Below, in pieces: positions 30,767 to 40,436 of a stretch of DNA of 41,971 nt (positions are counted from its first letter, which is position 1; each line of letters opens with the position of its first letter). This DNA comes from an uncultured Bacilli bacterium (lineage in GTDB: Bacteria; Bacillota_I; Bacilli_A; RF39; UBA660): positions 1-41,971 of the forward strand of contig CALVSC010000006.1 of the NCBI GenBank assembly GCA_944358855.1, given 5' to 3'. The position numbers and the translations under genes are program-made. The notes under the pieces are model-generated. The model saw only the letters and a program-made list of their open reading frames with translations, had not been told where the DNA came from and did no database searches.

Positions 30767-31213
30767 TTATTGTAAAGGCAAACACTTTTTCCATAAGAAA
30801 TAATATGGATATAATCGCTCTCCAAACAAATATTCACCAAACTCTAGATGTTCTAAACTAAGATAACTAGCATCACAAAAATAATAAGATTGATAATAAT
30901 ATATATCACAATTTTTAGGTAAAATAAAATAATTCCTTGTTTTAAAATAAATTTTATCATTCATATACACAATAATCTTAAGCTCTAAATCACAGTTTAA
31001 GCTATCTAATTTTTGAAGAATAAGAAAAAGTCCAATATTTTTCTCAAAATAAACTTTTACTTTATAAAATCCCACTAAATATAACAACTTTCTTCTCTTC
31101 TCCAACAAATCCCTTACTAAACATACAATATCTTCTTTAGAATCAGGAATATTACCAATATATTTTTGATTAAAAAAAATAAAATATTCATCCTGTAACT
31201 TCTCGACTCTCAT
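30767..31213 (-). CDS. Uncharacterised 148-residue protein
   Basis: I do not recognise this protein. It reads MRVEKLQDEYFIFFNQKYIG, then a basic helix (VRDLLEKRRKLLYLVG), then beta-rich sequence (FYKVKVYFEKNIGLFLILQK, LELKIIVYMNDKIYFK) and a Tyr/Phe-rich end (IYYYQSYYFCD). No signal peptide or membrane segment is clear. The ATG at 31213 has AGGTGAT before it and is preferred to an upstream codon at 31258. It is the fourth gene of the ackA-nrnA-engB unit. Confidence 0.6.
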   Translation of the reverse strand: MRVEKLQDEYFIFFNQKYIGNIPDSKEDIVCLVRDLLEKRRKLLYLVGFYKVKVYFEKNIGLFLILQKLDSLNCDLELKIIVYMNDKIYFKTRNYFILPKNCDIYYYQSYYFCDASYLSLEHLEFGEYLFGERLYPYYFLWKKCLPLQ

Positions 31214-31244
31214 GATATCACCTATAGTAATATATGAAAAAAGT

Positions 31245-31841
31245 CTAATTAACATCACTGTTAACTAGACTATCTATCTTTTTTAAAACTTCTTTAACAC
31301 CTAATTTTGTAACACTAGAGAAAACAACCAAATCATCACCCACAACTAAATCTAAAGTATCCAAAATATCTTTTAAGTTTTTCTCTTTTTTGCTACCCCC
31401 TACTTTATCTGCTTTAGTAGCAATCACTGTAACTGGTAAATTATAATACTTTAAGAAGTTATACATCAACAAATCATCTTCTGTAGGTTGATGACGGAAA
31501 TCAATTAATAAGAAAACACGTTTTAGTACAGTTCTTTTCTCTAAGTACTCTTCAATCATCATCCCAAACTTAGACTGTGTCTTTTTATCAACAGATGCAT
31601 ATCCATATCCAGGTACATCGATTAAATAAAAACTACCATTTACAGAATAAAAATTGAGAGTCTGCGTCTTACCAGGTCTAGAAGAAGTATAAGCTAAATT
31701 CTTTCTAGATAATAATGCATTTATAAAACTACTTTTACCAACATTACTACGTCCCACTAATAGAAACTCCGGTTTACCCTCTTCTGGATATTGACTTCTT
31801 CTAGTTGCTATAATCTCTAGATTAGCATCTTTAATTACCAT
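31245..31841 (-). CDS. engB: Ribosome biogenesis GTP-binding protein EngB (YsxC)
   Basis: EngB/YsxC is an essential small GTPase for late 50S assembly. The 198-residue protein has G1 GRSNVGKSSFINALL at about 27-41, the switch region TSSRPGKTQTLNFY, G3 DVPGYGYA, G4 TKADK and G5 FSSVTKLG. The length matches the family. The ATG at 31841 lies six bases after AGGTGA. Its start overlaps the end of the NrnA-like gene by 11 bases, so the two are translationally coupled. With der in the same window, two ribosome-assembly GTPases lie about 5 kb apart. Confidence 0.97.
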   Translation of the reverse strand: MVIKDANLEIIATRRSQYPEEGKPEFLLVGRSNVGKSSFINALLSRKNLAYTSSRPGKTQTLNFYSVNGSFYLIDVPGYGYASVDKKTQSKFGMMIEEYLEKRTVLKRVFLLIDFRHQPTEDDLLMYNFLKYYNLPVTVIATKADKVGGSKKEKNLKDILDTLDLVVGDDLVVFSSVTKLGVKEVLKKIDSLVNSDVN

Positions 31842-34009: not shown

Positions 34010-34037
34010 ATTATACTACAAAGAAACCTATTTTCAA
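34010..34037 (-). promoter_or_regulatory. Predicted promoter of the ackA-nrnA-engB operon
   Basis: On the minus strand TTGAAA (34032-34037), 16 bases and TATAAT (34010-34015). The -35 element overlaps the last codons of the tail-anchored protein gene. Confidence 0.7.
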
Positions 34038-35356
34038 AGGAAAAGAAGTATAAGAAAACTAGCAACCAATGACATAAAAATAATCAATATCATAAGTAAA
34101 GGAGTCGTAAACGCTGCTCTATCTACATTTAATGTTTTCTGATAAACCATATGATTAGTATTAGTTTTTCTAGCATTAGCTACATTTTCATAACTCATTA
34201 AACTAGAACTAATAGTAAGAGTAGAACCATCACTAGAATATAGATGATAAAACTGATTATCACTTCGCGTTTGATTCTGTTGATCCATACTATTTATTAA
34301 TAAATTCTTACTCTCCTCAAAATCATTTTTATCGCAATATAATTGAACTGGTTCAACATTTGGATTATTTTTCTTTTCTACAACAATAGAAACTTTATCT
34401 TCATCTTCTTTATCAACAACAGAAACATCAACACCAGATTCTCCCATATCGTTAGCAAGAGCTCTATATCCATCCACAACATCAAGAGCATCCTCTCCCG
34501 AAACAAGGCCCAAATCTTTAACATTACGCCTAACAGAAGCTCCACTAAGCATTGATACATCTCTAACTTCACTAGAATCTTTACTATCTATTATTCTATC
34601 ACCTGTATCTTCATTAACAAGAACACTATCTCCCATTTCATCAGTACTCATAATGGTATTATCATCTACAGAGTCAATAGCATCTGTATATATCTGTGCA
34701 CTATCCGAAAAAACTCTTTTTTTCTCTTTACCATAAATATAAGAAGAATACACCTCAGGATGATTAACCATAAAAGACACCTGCGAATTTTGTACATCTG
34801 GAGACATTCCTTCTAAATAGTCAACATCACGTCTAGCATTTTTTAAAGATTTTTCCAACATATCAACCATATCCCTCTCAGGAAGAATACCATCTTTATT
34901 ATGAATACTCAAAGTAAAAGAATGATGAGAATTAAGTTGGAATTTTACATCTACACCCGTATTAGAAAAGGTAGAAAGCAAACTATCAATCTCAGCTTGA
35001 TGAAAAGCATCCACTTCCATAACAAAATCCCCTTTATTATTAGTGTCAAAAGAATAATCGATTTTTTTACTACTACACACATTCTCTAATCCTGATACAT
35101 TAGGATTCATCTCATAACCATCAATAAAATAATCCTCTATATCTTTAGAATCCAATTCTGCTATTTGAGCAAGTTCACGATTAGTAAACGCATCGTTATA
35201 AACTCTTAAAACTTCTTGAATAACCAAATCTAAACGTTCCGGATATTCTGTTTTAAAAATTATGTCCTCTAAATTAATAGGAATATTTTTTTCTTGAAAT
35301 AAATAACTCATATAAGTAGCTTTTGCACATAACTTCATCCTATCATTACTCGTCAC
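34034..35356 (-). CDS. Uncharacterised tail-anchored protein, 440 residues
   Basis: I do not recognise this protein. The first 90 or so residues are helical (MKLCAKATYMSYLFQEKNIP and TNRELAQIAELDSKDIEDYF, a possible helix-turn-helix). The middle is acidic and rich in Ser, Asp and Val (DDNTIMSTDEMGDSVLVNED; VDVSVVDKEDEDKVSIVVEK) and looks like beta-strand modules. One hydrophobic segment of about 20 residues (TTPLLMILIIFMSLVASFLI) forms the very C-terminus. The protein therefore faces the cytoplasm and is held by a C-terminal anchor, which is rare in bacteria. The start is a GTG with a distant AAGG. It is a single gene between the second ackA and the first ackA, with its own promoter. Confidence 0.7.
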   Translation of the reverse strand: MTSNDRMKLCAKATYMSYLFQEKNIPINLEDIIFKTEYPERLDLVIQEVLRVYNDAFTNRELAQIAELDSKDIEDYFIDGYEMNPNVSGLENVCSSKKIDYSFDTNNKGDFVMEVDAFHQAEIDSLLSTFSNTGVDVKFQLNSHHSFTLSIHNKDGILPERDMVDMLEKSLKNARRDVDYLEGMSPDVQNSQVSFMVNHPEVYSSYIYGKEKKRVFSDSAQIYTDAIDSVDDNTIMSTDEMGDSVLVNEDTGDRIIDSKDSSEVRDVSMLSGASVRRNVKDLGLVSGEDALDVVDGYRALANDMGESGVDVSVVDKEDEDKVSIVVEKKNNPNVEPVQLYCDKNDFEESKNLLINSMDQQNQTRSDNQFYHLYSSDGSTLTISSSLMSYENVANARKTNTNHMVYQKTLNVDRAAFTTPLLMILIIFMSLVASFLILLFL

Positions 35357-35379
35357 AATATCACGACCTTATCATAACA

Positions 35380-35408
35380 AGTATACTAAAGGAAAAAAAG
35401 AAAGTAAA
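35380..35408 (-). promoter_or_regulatory. Predicted promoter of the tail-anchored protein gene
   Basis: On the minus strand TTTACT (35403-35408), 17 bases and TATACT (35380-35385). Confidence 0.6.
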
Positions 35409-35418
35409 TAAAAGAGCA

Positions 35419-35452
35419 TAAAAAAACTTATCACACAAAAGTATGATAAGTC
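35419..35452 (-). terminator. Terminator of ackA copy 2
   Basis: An 11-bp stem with one G-T pair (35426-35436 with 35441-35451) and loop AAAA is followed by seven T on the minus strand. Confidence 0.88.
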
Positions 35453-35455
35453 TTA

Positions 35456-36643
35456 TTAAGAACAAATAGCATATGTATCTCTTGCAATCATCAATTCTTC
35501 ATCTGTACCTAATACATAAACTGGAATACGAGAGTCTTTCTTTGTTACAACTCCTTCTAATCCTTTACGAACAACAGTTTTTTGATTTAACTCTTCATCA
35601 CATTCTACACCAATTGCTGATAATTTTTTCATAACCTCACTACGAATCATAGGATCATTTTCTCCACCACCAGCAGTAAAGCATATTGCATCTACTTTTC
35701 CATTAAGTTTCATATAATATCTAGCAATATAGTCAACAATCTTATTAGTATACATATTAACAGCTAACACAACTTGCTTATCGCCTTTTTCAAAGCCTTC
35801 ATCAATATCTCTTAAATCACTTTTACCAGCAATTCCTTGTAATCCACTATTAAAATTCAATTGTCTTTCTATCCAATCAATACTACGTTCTTCTTCTTTC
35901 AATACGTAATTAATTAAAGAATAATCAATATCACCAGAACGGGTACCCATCATAATACCTGCATTAGGAGTAAATCCCATAGATGTATCGATACATTTAC
36001 CTTCTTTTACAGCTGTAATACTACAACCACTACCAATATGGCAAATAATTAAATTAGGGACTTTACCTAAAATATCAGTCATTTTTTCTGTAATAAACTT
36101 ATGACTTAAACCATGAAATCCATATTTTCTAACAGCGTATTTTTCATACCATTCATAAGGTACAGGATATAAATAAGTGTCTTCTTCCATAGTTTGATGA
36201 AAAGCAGTATCAAAACAAACCACATTTTTTGCATTAGGAACTTCTTCCATAAAAGCTCTCATTCCTTTTACAGCACCAGGATTATGTAAAGGTGCCAATG
36301 GAGATAAAGCTTCAATTTCGTTAACAACTTTTTCATCTAACAAAACAGATTTAGAATATTTACTTCCTCCATGAACAACACGATGACCAACAGCCTCAAT
36401 TTCATCCAAAGAAGAAATGGCTTTATGTTCTAATAAATGTTTTAGCAACAACGTAACAGCATCTTTATGATCATTCATAACCACTTCAGCTGACTCTTTC
36501 TTATCTCCGATTGTTAAACTATACTTAGAACCATCTAAACCAATTCTCTCATAATTACCCTTCATTAATATTTTCTCTTCAGGCATCTCATATAAACGAA
36601 ATTTTAAAGTACTACTACCTGCATTTACTGATAATAATTTCAT
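35456..36643 (-). CDS. ackA: Acetate kinase-family protein (copy 2, divergent)
   Basis: This 395-residue protein is a second acetate/propionate kinase-family member. It shares the fold markers with copy 1: VNAGSSTLKFRLYEM, GHRVVHGGSKYS, DTAFHQTM, CHIGSGCSITAVKEGKC, MGTRSGDID and GTDEELMIARDT. It differs at two conserved sites: RKYGFHGLSHKF has Leu where the family has Thr (HGTSH), and GDIDYS has Tyr where copy 1 and the family have Pro. A different acyl substrate is possible, which is inference. The ATG at 36643 follows GGAGAGA and matches the start of the family; an upstream reading to 36712 crosses the promoter. It sits inside a block of unknown genes with its own promoter and terminator. 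Confidence 0.92.
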   Translation of the reverse strand: MKLLSVNAGSSTLKFRLYEMPEEKILMKGNYERIGLDGSKYSLTIGDKKESAEVVMNDHKDAVTLLLKHLLEHKAISSLDEIEAVGHRVVHGGSKYSKSVLLDEKVVNEIEALSPLAPLHNPGAVKGMRAFMEEVPNAKNVVCFDTAFHQTMEEDTYLYPVPYEWYEKYAVRKYGFHGLSHKFITEKMTDILGKVPNLIICHIGSGCSITAVKEGKCIDTSMGFTPNAGIMMGTRSGDIDYSLINYVLKEEERSIDWIERQLNFNSGLQGIAGKSDLRDIDEGFEKGDKQVVLAVNMYTNKIVDYIARYYMKLNGKVDAICFTAGGGENDPMIRSEVMKKLSAIGVECDEELNQKTVVRKGLEGVVTKKDSRIPVYVLGTDEELMIARDTYAICS

Positions 36644-36664
36644 ATAATCTCTCCTTGTATTCCT

Positions 36665-36673
36665 ACTATAACA
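36665..36673 (-). promoter_or_regulatory. Predicted extended -10 promoter of ackA copy 2
   Basis: TGTTATAGT on the minus strand, 22 bases before the start codon, after a T-rich stretch without a good -35. Confidence 0.5.
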
Positions 36674-36698
36674 TATTTTAACAAAAAAAGAAAACCCT

Positions 36699-36992
36699 TT
36701 ATAGACCAACAAAATCTAAATAACCAGGATTTTCTTTAATTAATAATTCAAATTTAGGAATAGTAGACTTTTCAATTCTTTCACGAATATAATCTAAATT
36801 TTCATAAAATAAAGTGGATTTCATTAAAATGAACTCTTTAATATTAACAACACCAAGACTATAGAAATAATCTAAAATAGAAATAACTTTATCATCTTCT
36901 AATAAGAAAATAGATAATATATCATCATTTAAACTTTCTTTTATATCTAAAATATCATCTTTAGATAAATTATATTTTTCTAGATAATCCAT
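36699..36992 (-). CDS. Uncharacterised small helical-repeat protein
   Basis: I do not recognise this 97-residue protein. It is all-helical and acidic. Units such as ISILDYFYSLGVVNIKEFI followed by STLFYENLDYIRERI, and the end LLIKENPGYLDFVGL, have the spacing of mTERF/HEAT-like helical repeats (helix, L-G-V turn, helix, P-x-x-L). It overlaps the 3' end of the 607-residue protein gene by 23 bases, with GGAGGAG before its ATG. The 607-residue protein shows similar units, so the two may be one functional pair. No terminator is clear after it. Confidence 0.65.
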   Translation of the reverse strand: MDYLEKYNLSKDDILDIKESLNDDILSIFLLEDDKVISILDYFYSLGVVNIKEFILMKSTLFYENLDYIRERIEKSTIPKFELLIKENPGYLDFVGL

Positions 36993-38793
36993 TACTATCT
37001 CCTCCTCTACTATAAGCTCTATCTATATCATCTTTCATTGCTTTAAAACTATCTTCTGTTAAATACATACCAGAAACAGCAGAATATAAGAAAGCATCTT
37101 CTCCCATGTAACCTTCACTTTTTAAAGCTCCATAAGAACTTAAAACTTTATAACGAGAAACATCAACACCACCAATAGTATAATAAGGATTATCACCCTC
37201 TCTAAAATTATTCTCTAAATAGCAAATATTCTCATCATCTTCTATACCAGTATCTAAACCATAATCTCTTTGACTTAGTACCTCATCAAATAATGAAGCA
37301 TTAGGAATTTTATCAGTAATAGATACAAAATTATCTTTTACATAATTAGCAAGATCATCACCTAAGGCAAATTCACCATTTGCTAAATGAACATCTGTTT
37401 TTAAAGTTCCAATTCTATGTTCAGAAGAAATCTTATCATAATAATCAAATCGATTATTTTCTTGTTTTAAAGCATATAACTTAGCAAAAGCCTCTTCTCT
37501 AAAAGAAACAAAAGCAGAAGGGAAATAATAAACATAATTAAAATTATCATTACCTAATAAGCCTAATTCAATAAACCGATTAGCTTTCTCAAAAATATGA
37601 GAAGAAGTAAAAATAGAAACTGGAAATAAAGATTGATCCCGTCCATCAAAAAAGCCAAAATCTCTTAATAAATTATAATTTTGTACTACCCTATTATGTG
37701 GTTGTTGTAAAGCACTAAGGCCCCTACCCTGAGCAATAGAAACATCAAATCCCAAAGACTTAAGAAACTCTTCATTTTTAACCAAATCATCATAAGAAAC
37801 TCTATGTGCTGCTGAAAATAGTACAGAATTATTGTTGGAAGAAGACTTTCTCTGCTTTGCAGAGCTTTTCTTTCTAATAGAAGAAGATGACATATTATTT
37901 ATCCAAACAGAAGGAATAGAAAACAATGTTTTAGGAACAGAGGAAAAACTTTCATATCTACTCTTTAACGTTTCTAAATCTCCATAAACTGCAATAGTAA
38001 GTAAAGCATCTGGAGTAAAAGAAGTTAAAATGTTTTTACTTTGCATATAAGCTAAAATTGATTTTGCTTTACCCAAATGAATATGACTTAACACTTCATC
38101 TTTATTTCTTGATAAAAGTGATTGTACTTTATCAGGAACTTGAAACTCGGACAATAAAGACTTAACCTGATCCATATCGGCAAGTGAAACCACTTTATGT
38201 TGATGTAAAATAGCGTCATTATAAGCAATAATCTGTTTTAACAAAGAAGCTTTATATTGAAAAGAAACATTAGGATCATTAACTGCTTCATCTAACAAAT
38301 GAAAATCTTCAATATCTAACAAAGTCATATCATCAGGATCCGTAACTTTAGCATCCAAATCTTCATAACTAAAAATTTTATTTTCCATCATAGATAATTT
38401 TTCCTTAACTTCATCAGGATGGTTTAAATGATAATCTCTTTCACTCTGTAACTTTTCAATTCTATTATCAAGAGCGGAAGTAATACGATTAATAAATCTA
38501 CTCTGACCAGCAGAAATCTTCATCTTTAACCCTTTTTCATAAATACCTTCTAAGACACTTTGTACCTCATGAAATTTACTTAAAAAACCAGGATCTGTAA
38601 CATCAACAATATCTTGAAAATCACTAGGTAATAAATAACATAAATTTTCTACACTCTCATCAATCTGATCTTTAATAGAACGTAATCTATTAATATCTTC
38701 TTGAACTCCACCATTAGAAGTCATAGAAGAAAGTCTCTCATACTCCTGATATAAATACTCAATTCTACTTGTTATTAAATCATGTAAATTCAC
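36970..38793 (-). CDS. Uncharacterised 607-residue coiled-coil and helical-repeat protein
   Basis: I do not recognise this protein. The first 150 residues are charged helices with coiled-coil character (RIEYLYQEYERLSSMTS; LDNRIEKLQSERDYHLNHPD). Residues from about 210 to 480 hold repeated helix pairs with L-G-F/L turns and Pro at unit ends (EEFLKSLGFDVS; NLLRDFGFFDGRDQSLFPVS; ANRFIELGLLGNDNF), like mTERF/HEAT units. A Ser/Lys/Arg-rich linker (SSSIRKKSSAKQRKSSSNNN) splits them. There is no signal peptide or membrane segment. The start is a GTG with GGAGGTGA in front, which shares its TGA with the stop of the small gene upstream. It is third in an operon of four. Confidence 0.7.
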   Translation of the reverse strand: MNLHDLITSRIEYLYQEYERLSSMTSNGGVQEDINRLRSIKDQIDESVENLCYLLPSDFQDIVDVTDPGFLSKFHEVQSVLEGIYEKGLKMKISAGQSRFINRITSALDNRIEKLQSERDYHLNHPDEVKEKLSMMENKIFSYEDLDAKVTDPDDMTLLDIEDFHLLDEAVNDPNVSFQYKASLLKQIIAYNDAILHQHKVVSLADMDQVKSLLSEFQVPDKVQSLLSRNKDEVLSHIHLGKAKSILAYMQSKNILTSFTPDALLTIAVYGDLETLKSRYESFSSVPKTLFSIPSVWINNMSSSSIRKKSSAKQRKSSSNNNSVLFSAAHRVSYDDLVKNEEFLKSLGFDVSIAQGRGLSALQQPHNRVVQNYNLLRDFGFFDGRDQSLFPVSIFTSSHIFEKANRFIELGLLGNDNFNYVYYFPSAFVSFREEAFAKLYALKQENNRFDYYDKISSEHRIGTLKTDVHLANGEFALGDDLANYVKDNFVSITDKIPNASLFDEVLSQRDYGLDTGIEDDENICYLENNFREGDNPYYTIGGVDVSRYKVLSSYGALKSEGYMGEDAFLYSAVSGMYLTEDSFKAMKDDIDRAYSRGGDSNGLSRKI

Positions 38794-38797
38794 GCCA

Positions 38798-39001
38798 TCA
38801 CCTCCAATTCAACAAAATATGATACATCTTTAAATAAAAAGAAAAGTCTCGACTAGATAAATGAATCTTTTGATAAAACTCCTTCGTACTAATACCTAGT
38901 TGATAAGAAAGTTCAGAAACAGGAACTTCTTTTTCTAAAATAAGTTCTAAACAATCCAATTTAATATCAATAAACAATTGCTCTAATTTCTTATCTATCA
39001 T
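38798..39001 (-). CDS. Small helix-turn-helix-like protein, 67 residues
   Basis: I do not recognise this protein by name. It has an acidic helix (KKLEQLFIDIKLDCLELILE) followed by VPVSELSYQLGISTKEFYQK, which has the spacing of a helix-turn-helix (A/S-x2-L-G-I-S), and a Tyr/Leu-rich end. Its ATG overlaps the TGA of the upstream 454-residue protein (ATGA). This tight coupling and the size are like an antitoxin or a small regulator, but no family match can be claimed from reading alone. Confidence 0.6.
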   Translation of the reverse strand: MIDKKLEQLFIDIKLDCLELILEKEVPVSELSYQLGISTKEFYQKIHLSSRDFSFYLKMYHILLNWR

Positions 39002-40362
39002 CGTCTCATTCCTCCCATATCTAAACTATCAGATATTTCTCTGCTAAAGGAATCTTGAAATACTTGTTGAGAAAGCACAAAGTCAGAACTACTACTTTTC
39101 ATGGACTTTAAAGACTTTTCAATTAAAGACTGCTCTCTTTGATATATTCTAACACTCTCATCATAAATATCTCTTCTATCAGCAAAAGATAAAACCAATA
39201 CATCTCCTTGATAAGGAATAAAAGAGACTAATAAATTGGAAGAATTAACAGTATACATATGATGAGAAAATTTTTTCCCAACTAAAACAGGTTTACTCTT
39301 AATATCTCGGTCAGACTTACCAAGACCTTCTAATTTTGTTAATATAGAACGCATTTTCTTTCTATCATTCTTAGAAAAAGACTCAAGTTGAAAGAAAGGC
39401 TTTCCATCATCGTCAAGTAAAAAGTAAACATGACTCTTATCATCAACTTTACTATCATCTTTTTCTTCACTAAATTGTTGATCTAATTCTTGGACAACCT
39501 GAAAAGTCGAATTTAAACTAGATAAATCTTCTCGTAATTCTTCCATACGATGTGCTCCCTGATCAGAACTTTTTAAAGCACCATCTATTTTATCTTTTAA
39601 CACTCTCATTTGATACACAGATAACAATAACCGTATATCATCATAATTCATCGTATCAGAAAGTTCTTGTTCTCTTCCTTCTTTTTTTAGCTCATCATAA
39701 ATTTCCACAACTTGTCTATAATAATCCAACTCCTCAGGACTAAGACTAGAAACTTTATAATAATATTTTGTTAAATATGGATTAACCTCTTCCATAACTT
39801 GAGAATAAGAATCCTTAAAACTAGATACCATATCAGCAGAAACAGTTATTGTATCTAAATCTATTTTTTCAACAGTTGCTTCCAAACAACTATGATATGC
39901 CATAGAACGTAATACTGCCAATTTTTCTTCATCACTTAATTTACTACGTAATACTTTATTTGCTTTTGTCGTATCACTCATCGTATCAAAAGCATGAATT
40001 CTTTTTTGTACACTCGCTAAATCCTTTAACGTCTTTGCCGGATTTTTTACACATTCTAATAATTCACTATTTCTTCGAATCTCATTAACTGCTTCCGTTA
40101 CTTGGTCGATATTTAAAAGACCACAGTCAGAAAAATATTGTAACAAATCAAATTGACTTTCTAAAGACGGTTCTACACTTAATAATAAATCTCTATTTTC
40201 TAACAAACCAGAAACATTATGGACATCATCATCCTCCCCTTTTTGTAACAAAACAGAAGCACACTGATAACGTTTTCTAAGAGCACTTTCTTTCTTTTCT
40301 AATCGTAATCTTTCTTGTTCTAAAATATGTTCAAACTCTTCTAAAGCTTTATCAGAATCCAT
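38998..40362 (-). CDS. Uncharacterised 454-residue coiled-coil protein with RelE/ParE-like C-terminal region
   Basis: I do not recognise the whole protein. The start is a charged coiled coil (ALEEFEHILEQERLRLEKKE). Helical units follow (LLENRDLLLSVEPSLESQ and FDLLQYFSDCGLLNIDQV), then more coiled coil to about residue 300. Residues 312-402 look different: FFQLESFSKNDRKKMRSIL, VLVGKKFSHHMYTVNSS, LLVSFIPYQGDVLVLSF and ADRRDIYDES. This order (helices, then strands, ending H/D-R-R-D-I-Y) recalls RelE/ParE-type toxins, but the usual Arg of the central strand is not seen. The ATG at 40362 lies seven bases after AGGAGG; an upstream ATG overlaps it. It leads a four-gene unit with the 67-, 607- and 97-residue proteins. 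Confidence 0.65.
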   Translation of the reverse strand: MDSDKALEEFEHILEQERLRLEKKESALRKRYQCASVLLQKGEDDDVHNVSGLLENRDLLLSVEPSLESQFDLLQYFSDCGLLNIDQVTEAVNEIRRNSELLECVKNPAKTLKDLASVQKRIHAFDTMSDTTKANKVLRSKLSDEEKLAVLRSMAYHSCLEATVEKIDLDTITVSADMVSSFKDSYSQVMEEVNPYLTKYYYKVSSLSPEELDYYRQVVEIYDELKKEGREQELSDTMNYDDIRLLLSVYQMRVLKDKIDGALKSSDQGAHRMEELREDLSSLNSTFQVVQELDQQFSEEKDDSKVDDKSHVYFLLDDDGKPFFQLESFSKNDRKKMRSILTKLEGLGKSDRDIKSKPVLVGKKFSHHMYTVNSSNLLVSFIPYQGDVLVLSFADRRDIYDESVRIYQREQSLIEKSLKSMKSSSSDFVLSQQVFQDSFSREISDSLDMGGMRR

Positions 40363-40408: not shown

Positions 40409-40436
40409 AAAAAAAGATAGGTTTATAACCTATCTT
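40409..40436 (-). terminator. Terminator of the spore protein gene
   Basis: A 10-bp stem AAGATAGGTT/AACCTATCTT (40414-40423 with 40427-40436) is followed by T on the minus strand, 11 bases after the stop codon. Confidence 0.88.

Follow-up and report, generated by a model that had tools for sequence, protein, structure and literature searches.

Genes A, B, C and D, which encode proteins of 454, 67, 607 and 97 residues, form a conserved, fast-evolving and lineage-specific operon whose first gene encodes a RelE-superfamily domain, by predicted fold and by sequence profile, and whose third and fourth genes encode mTERF-like proteins. Within a single family of uncultured gut Bacilli, tens of genera carry the operon or a variant of it, at many different places in the chromosome. 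Genes A and C show translational coupling and co-inheritance. The window (the whole stretch of DNA analysed, 41,971 nucleotides) is contig 6 of a 1.25 Mb genome that is about 74% complete and belongs to an uncultured gut Bacilli lineage. For the SpoIVA protein of this lineage, the nearest relatives come from 'uncultured Bacilli' MAGs and Candidatus Faecimonas.

Organisation and conservation of the operon

As shown in Table 1, the operon lies in a block between a SASP gene (40665-40447) and the first ackA gene (33982-32801). An earlier note had reported five open reading frames of 454, 67, 607, 97 and 440 residues on one strand of this block, and all were verified. The linkage described there was confirmed for the 4-base overlap (ATGA) of A and B and for the 23-base overlap of C and D, but not for a shared TGA, as B (stop at 38798) and C (GTG start at 38793) are 4 bases apart. 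The Shine-Dalgarno sequence GGAGGTGAT of C sits across the stop of B. The start of ackA2 lies 55 bases after D, and no terminator was found in this interval, so that read-through is possible. A terminator-like hairpin follows ackA2, and the gene of the 440-residue protein is therefore outside the transcription unit, which consists of A-B-C-D and perhaps ackA2 by read-through. The set of linked proteins was accordingly reduced to A, B, C and D.

Table 1. Features of the block containing the operon, with positions in the window.
Feature	Position	Strand	Evidence
Gene A, 454 aa: about 300 residues of helices/coiled coil, predicted RelE-superfamily domain at about 310-412, helical tail	38998..40362	-	AlphaFold2, Foldseek, profile-profile comparison
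Gene B, 67-aa putative helix-turn-helix protein	38798..39001	-	Weak Pfam HTH matches, orthologues
Gene C, 607-aa predicted mTERF-like alpha-solenoid protein	36970..38793	-	Homologues, AlphaFold2, hhalign
Gene D, 97-aa acidic mTERF-like protein	36699..36992	-	Position after C, PF02536, MTERF3
ackA2, second acetate kinase, bystander	35456..36643	-	TIGR00016, 482 bits
440-aa tail-anchored protein, outside the unit	34034..35356	-	Homologue search, terminator position
Terminator-like hairpin between the SASP gene and gene A	40414..40436	-	
Terminator-like hairpin directly 3' of ackA2	35423..35454	-	

Homologues in further genera of the family were already apparent from the first search with C. Profile searches then recovered C homologues in 34 of 193 and 88 of 288 sampled genomes, all within this one family. 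A class-wide sample of 296 genomes gave matches in nine genomes of the family and one match outside it (G608), a RelA/SpoT-like protein that was rejected as spurious since the profile failed to recover the match. In all, 38 homologues of C were collected, and identity was low (11-32%). At 40 loci, nearly all C genes had a coupled gene immediately upstream, and D was immediately downstream of C at 26 loci, one of them joined across two contig ends. A two-gene form, consisting of A'' (310-357 residues) followed by C and lacking D, was present at 14 of the 40 loci, in one of which A'' is truncated at a contig end. At 7 of the 40 loci (the window and six other genomes), B is located between A and C. 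An independent search with the RelE-like domain as the sole query placed C immediately downstream in 22 of 30 cases; roughly one in four of the RelE-like proteins recovered had no adjacent C.

The neighbouring chromosomal genes vary between genera, and the co-inheritance is therefore more than simple synteny; the linkage of A-B-C-D is above chance because it recurs across many other genera. The co-occurrence in relatives that the earlier note had proposed to check was thus found for A-B-C-D or its variants but not for ackA2 and the 440-residue gene. The coiled-coil, HTH-like and helical-repeat parts that the same note had placed in one linked set do belong to a conserved set, namely A-B-C-D.

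Three paralogous copies are present in the genome that holds the window. Besides the unit in the window, an A'-C'-D' copy (L081 1-2373 and L083 4223-4685) is split over contigs 56 and 69, with the same 24-residue end on each, near gpr/spoIIP-like genes, and an A''-C'' copy (L082 769-3496) lies immediately before rplU. A link with sporulation, suggested by the SASP gene beside A and by gpr/spoIIP beside the second copy, was rejected, as C was present in at least 6 of 26 SpoIVA-negative and at most 82 of 262 SpoIVA-positive genomes and showed no association. In one locus (L012 9628-11432), gene C is broken by a gap or frameshift into open reading frames of 490 and 100 residues, possibly a pseudogene or an assembly error. 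In genome G158, the gene immediately following D (L017 5493-5951) encodes a homologue (E 7e-6) of a 163-residue protein of unknown function that the window encodes at 30767-31258, more than 5 kb from D.

Folds of the encoded proteins

Single-sequence searches of Pfam and NCBIfam gave chance-level matches only and named none of the five proteins. The statement of the earlier note that no family could be assigned held for such searches, but profiles placed A in the RelE superfamily and indicated that C and D are mTERF-like. Matches to PHROGs were weak and nearly all to families of unknown function, and neither the D alignment nor C matched anything in scans of named organisms.

The AlphaFold2 model of A from the window (mean pLDDT 82.4) shows a helical arm and a C-terminal domain with the order beta-alpha-beta-beta-beta-beta-alpha. 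The top Foldseek match was RelE of T. thermophilus (2khe, probability 1.00, TM 0.68 of the target), and further matches included M. jannaschii RelE (3bpq), HP0894/HP0892, YafQ and Cami1. Because the domain makes up a small share of the query, the E-values of these matches were no lower than 0.09. Independently, the HigB/RelE-type Pfam family Gp49 was matched by 5 of 13 A'' partners (best 2.6e-4), and the profile of the A'' C-terminal domain (A11) matched the YoeB mRNA interferase in the PDB with an E-value of 4e-6. A from the window aligned with the A'' partners over the RelE-like domain in hhalign (probability 98, E 1.7e-13), and the comparison of A with A'' profiles (A8 and A7) scored 107, with shuffled and reversed decoys at no more than 25. 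By modelled fold and by sequence profile, the C-terminal region of A is a RelE-superfamily domain.

One Arg, aligned with the Arg of the RVVY strand of YoeB, and one Lys are invariant in the A11 set. The Arg was kept in the A'' paralogues and in L060 and L052, while A from the window has Leu378 at this position and the four nearest type-I relatives have also lost the Arg. With Leu378 in place of the Arg, cleavage of mRNA by A from the window is unlikely, judging from the alignment. Proteins with a terminal RelE-like domain are helical and 310-680 residues long; the pI of the RelE-like domains was 9.4, and it was above 8 in 13 of 15. Solo RelE-like helical proteins of 260-540 residues without an adjacent C were also observed in the same bacterial family (L175, L178, L179, L180, L182, L183, L184 and L185), and in L175 the domain is joined to repeats resembling helicase-associated domains.

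Weak matches to differing Pfam HTH families (HTH_AraC, RecQ-1-like_HTH, HTH_Tnp_1 and HTH_45) were found at about residues 17-50 in 4 of 7 B homologues, which suggests that B is a small HTH-like protein.

C consists of a helical N-terminus (1-200), repeats (about 203-460) and a C-terminal cap, and the cap carries its strongest conserved motif, Y.I.G..ISR.KV.R (S546, K549 and the Arg at 552). The AlphaFold2 model of C (pLDDT 83.9) is nearly all helix, and self-alignment gave a weak internal repeat with an offset of about 34 residues (E about 7e-4). As a reference, seven bacterial mTERF-repeat proteins of the same family were found with PF02536 (up to 4e-24). The C profile matched these proteins in hhalign with a score of 62.6 (E 1.1e-7; decoys up to 30.2) and the D profile with a score of 44.5 (E 1.5e-6; decoys up to 34.0), the decoys being reversed and block-shuffled, and A-type profiles scored below 20 against the same alignment. 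PF02536 (mTERF) was the Pfam family matched by most D members, in 6 of 25 cases and weakly (best 5.2e-4); none of the 25 reached the curated Pfam cut-off, and C and D from the window gave no match to it. Human MTERF3 was among the top PDB matches of the D profile (E 0.0085). Searches of the C model with Foldseek and against a viral structure library gave no significant match, and the Foldseek list includes TAL effectors and human mTERF (3n6s, probability 0.23, E 5.3, TM 0.40 of the target). These comparisons point to C and D as mTERF-like helical-repeat proteins rather than members of the mTERF family.

Prokaryotic mTERF-like DNA-binding proteins were first described as pTERFs from gut Bacillota MAGs; these proteins carry 3-11 tandem units, and their DNA binding, sequence-specific for pTERF1 and pTERF2, is proven (Hu et al. 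2024, PMC11417379). The clear mTERF-repeat proteins in our sample (L099, L100, L101, L102, L103, L104 and L105, from genomes G063, G081, G061, G064, G105, G074 and G018, respectively) are probably pTERF-like proteins. Some of them have near-identical 34-residue units, such as LGYTREEVIKMTKKLPALYGLSIETIKQKIEDM in L104, and several are in tandem or at contig ends. PF02536 matches above the cut-off (up to 4e-24) were found in 11 of 145 genomes of the family and in none of 14 control genomes. Further PF02536 matches were L112 1-1896, with helical repeats of a degenerate YGIxYxDGGxIFxxxxxEIExIVxxC pattern, and L109 403-2151, with a repeat of 30-odd residues, YLIxKCPxILxxGxxxEIExIIxxL. The pTERF-like proteins are basic (pI 9.1), compared with median pI values of 5.4 for C and 4.6 for D (range 4.2-6.1). 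The mTERF-like region of C is likewise acidic in most members (median pI 5.4), whereas the repeat region of C from the window is basic (pI 9.1). The acidity of C and D argues against simple nucleic-acid binding, which is therefore uncertain.

A proposed function and its alternatives

We tentatively favour the reading that the products of this RelE-mTERF operon act as one cytoplasmic complex, in which the solenoid of C selects a site and A engages ribosome-associated RNA. D would cap this mTERF-like solenoid; the selected site would be on RNA, DNA or the ribosome, and it is there that the RelE-fold domain would engage the RNA. In the A''-C'' paralogues, which keep the Arg and Lys, the domain may still cut mRNA; the complex encoded in the window would bind and regulate rather than cut because the Arg is replaced by Leu378. 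The module probably originated from a RelE/HigB toxin-antitoxin gene pair that turned into a fixed chromosomal regulator. That the operon encodes a protein-guided, possibly repeat-coded mRNA interferase, with A''-C'' as the active form and A-B-C-D of the window as a non-cleaving regulator, is speculative and rather improbable. If true, mTERF-like solenoids would address a RelE-type ribonuclease to particular transcripts.

The strongest rival, though unlikely, is a toxin-antitoxin or abortive-defence system, in which A (or A'') would be a ribosome-dependent mRNA interferase, and C with D and B would serve as a large antitoxin or sensor that keeps it inactive until a trigger arrives. The RelE fold with the invariant Arg and Lys of the A11 set and the tightly coupled, toxin-first gene order fit this reading, as do the acidic D beside a basic RelE-like domain, the fast divergence, the several paralogues and the shifting genomic places. 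However, the loci lie among housekeeping genes and are partly common to related genera, the copy in the window lacks the Arg, and partnerless solo RelE-like proteins exist. Moreover, PADLOC gave chance-level matches and no convincing defence family, and tblastn gave no match of C in phages and plasmids or of A'' in phages.

A pTERF-like transcription regulator, which we place next, is also unlikely: the C repeats would bind chromosomal DNA with A, B and D as accessory proteins, and the RelE fold would serve protein contacts only. Consistent with it are the distant homology that links C and D with bacterial mTERF proteins, the specific DNA binding of pTERF1 and pTERF2 (PMC11417379), the HTH-like B and the presence of TAL effectors and mTERF, none significant, in the Foldseek list of C. 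Against it, most members have an acidic mTERF-like region in C, and the repeats are degenerate compared with the near-identical tandem units of pTERF. The acidic C and D would fit with a protein scaffold without nucleic-acid function, in which coiled coils and solenoids are structural and the RelE and mTERF folds are interaction surfaces, and so would the mostly helical AlphaFold2 models, the type-I A proteins without the key Arg and the strong divergence. We consider this improbable, as the RelE-like domain is basic, the Arg and Lys are strictly retained in the A11 set and the most conserved motif of C is the Ser/Lys/Arg cap.

No homologue of ackA or of the 440-residue protein was found near 38 other A/C loci (540 kb searched), and the 440-residue protein had no clear homologue among 97 genomes of the family. 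The acyl-phosphate enzyme and the membrane-linked member that the earlier note had included are therefore dropped; the acetate kinase and the tail-anchored protein are bystanders with no role in the operon. The model derived from that note, in which ackA2 supplies acetyl phosphate to a cytoplasmic assembly linked to the membrane, draws on the gene order in one genome and on possible read-through from D, but with both genes absent from the other loci and the 440-residue gene beyond the terminator it is very improbable and is refuted as a conserved system, a genome-specific link being possible. The 440-residue protein is acidic, and its gene is an orphan or very fast-evolving. ackA2 and ackA1 are 50.5% identical, and the sequence HIGNGGS of ackA1 is HIGSGCS in ackA2, with Ser in place of Asn at a position that we take to be within the acetate kinase active site.

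Relation to known systems and significance

The closest relatives of the parts of the RelE-mTERF operon are toxins of the RelE/HigB type and the DNA-binding pTERF proteins described from prokaryotes in 2024. The C-terminal domain of A shares the fold and the order of secondary elements with the RelE/ParE superfamily (RelE, YoeB, HigB/Gp49, YafQ) and Cami1, and in A'' an Arg that aligns with that of the YoeB RVVY strand is invariant, as is a Lys close to the last strand. However, RelE/ParE toxins are stand-alone proteins of about 90 residues with Arg at the RVVY position, whereas A from the window has 454 residues, carries the domain at the end of a helical protein and has Leu378 at that position; C and D are not among the known antitoxins. 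The order of A-B, a RelE-fold gene followed by a putative HTH gene, resembles that of HigBA operons, but these have no counterpart of C or D, and B is present at only 7 of the 40 loci.

Like pTERFs, C and D have mTERF-like helical repeats and occur in gut Bacillota MAGs, and at profile level they match mTERF proteins encoded by bacteria of their own family. In contrast to the tandem units of pTERF, their repeats are degenerate and acidic and belong to an operon with a RelE-fold protein, while the available part of the pTERF paper (PMC11417379) describes no toxin-type partner. With the eukaryotic mTERF proteins (MTERF1, MTERF3), C shares the helical repeat period of about 34 residues and D a profile match to MTERF3; these proteins are organellar, and the fold match of C to mTERF1 was below significance. 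In the literature searched, RelE and mTERF as whole words never occurred in one paper, and this makes the operon a new combination, in which known folds are represented by very divergent members. No described system combines the parts of A-B-C-D, in agreement with the earlier proposal that the block is a candidate for something undescribed.

The operon extends RelE-superfamily domains beyond small mobile toxins to large, chromosomally fixed proteins, and it gives prokaryotic mTERF-like solenoids a first concrete partner, a RelE-fold protein, and a testable function. Its hosts belong to a major uncultured lineage of the gut, with genomes rich in unannotated genes.
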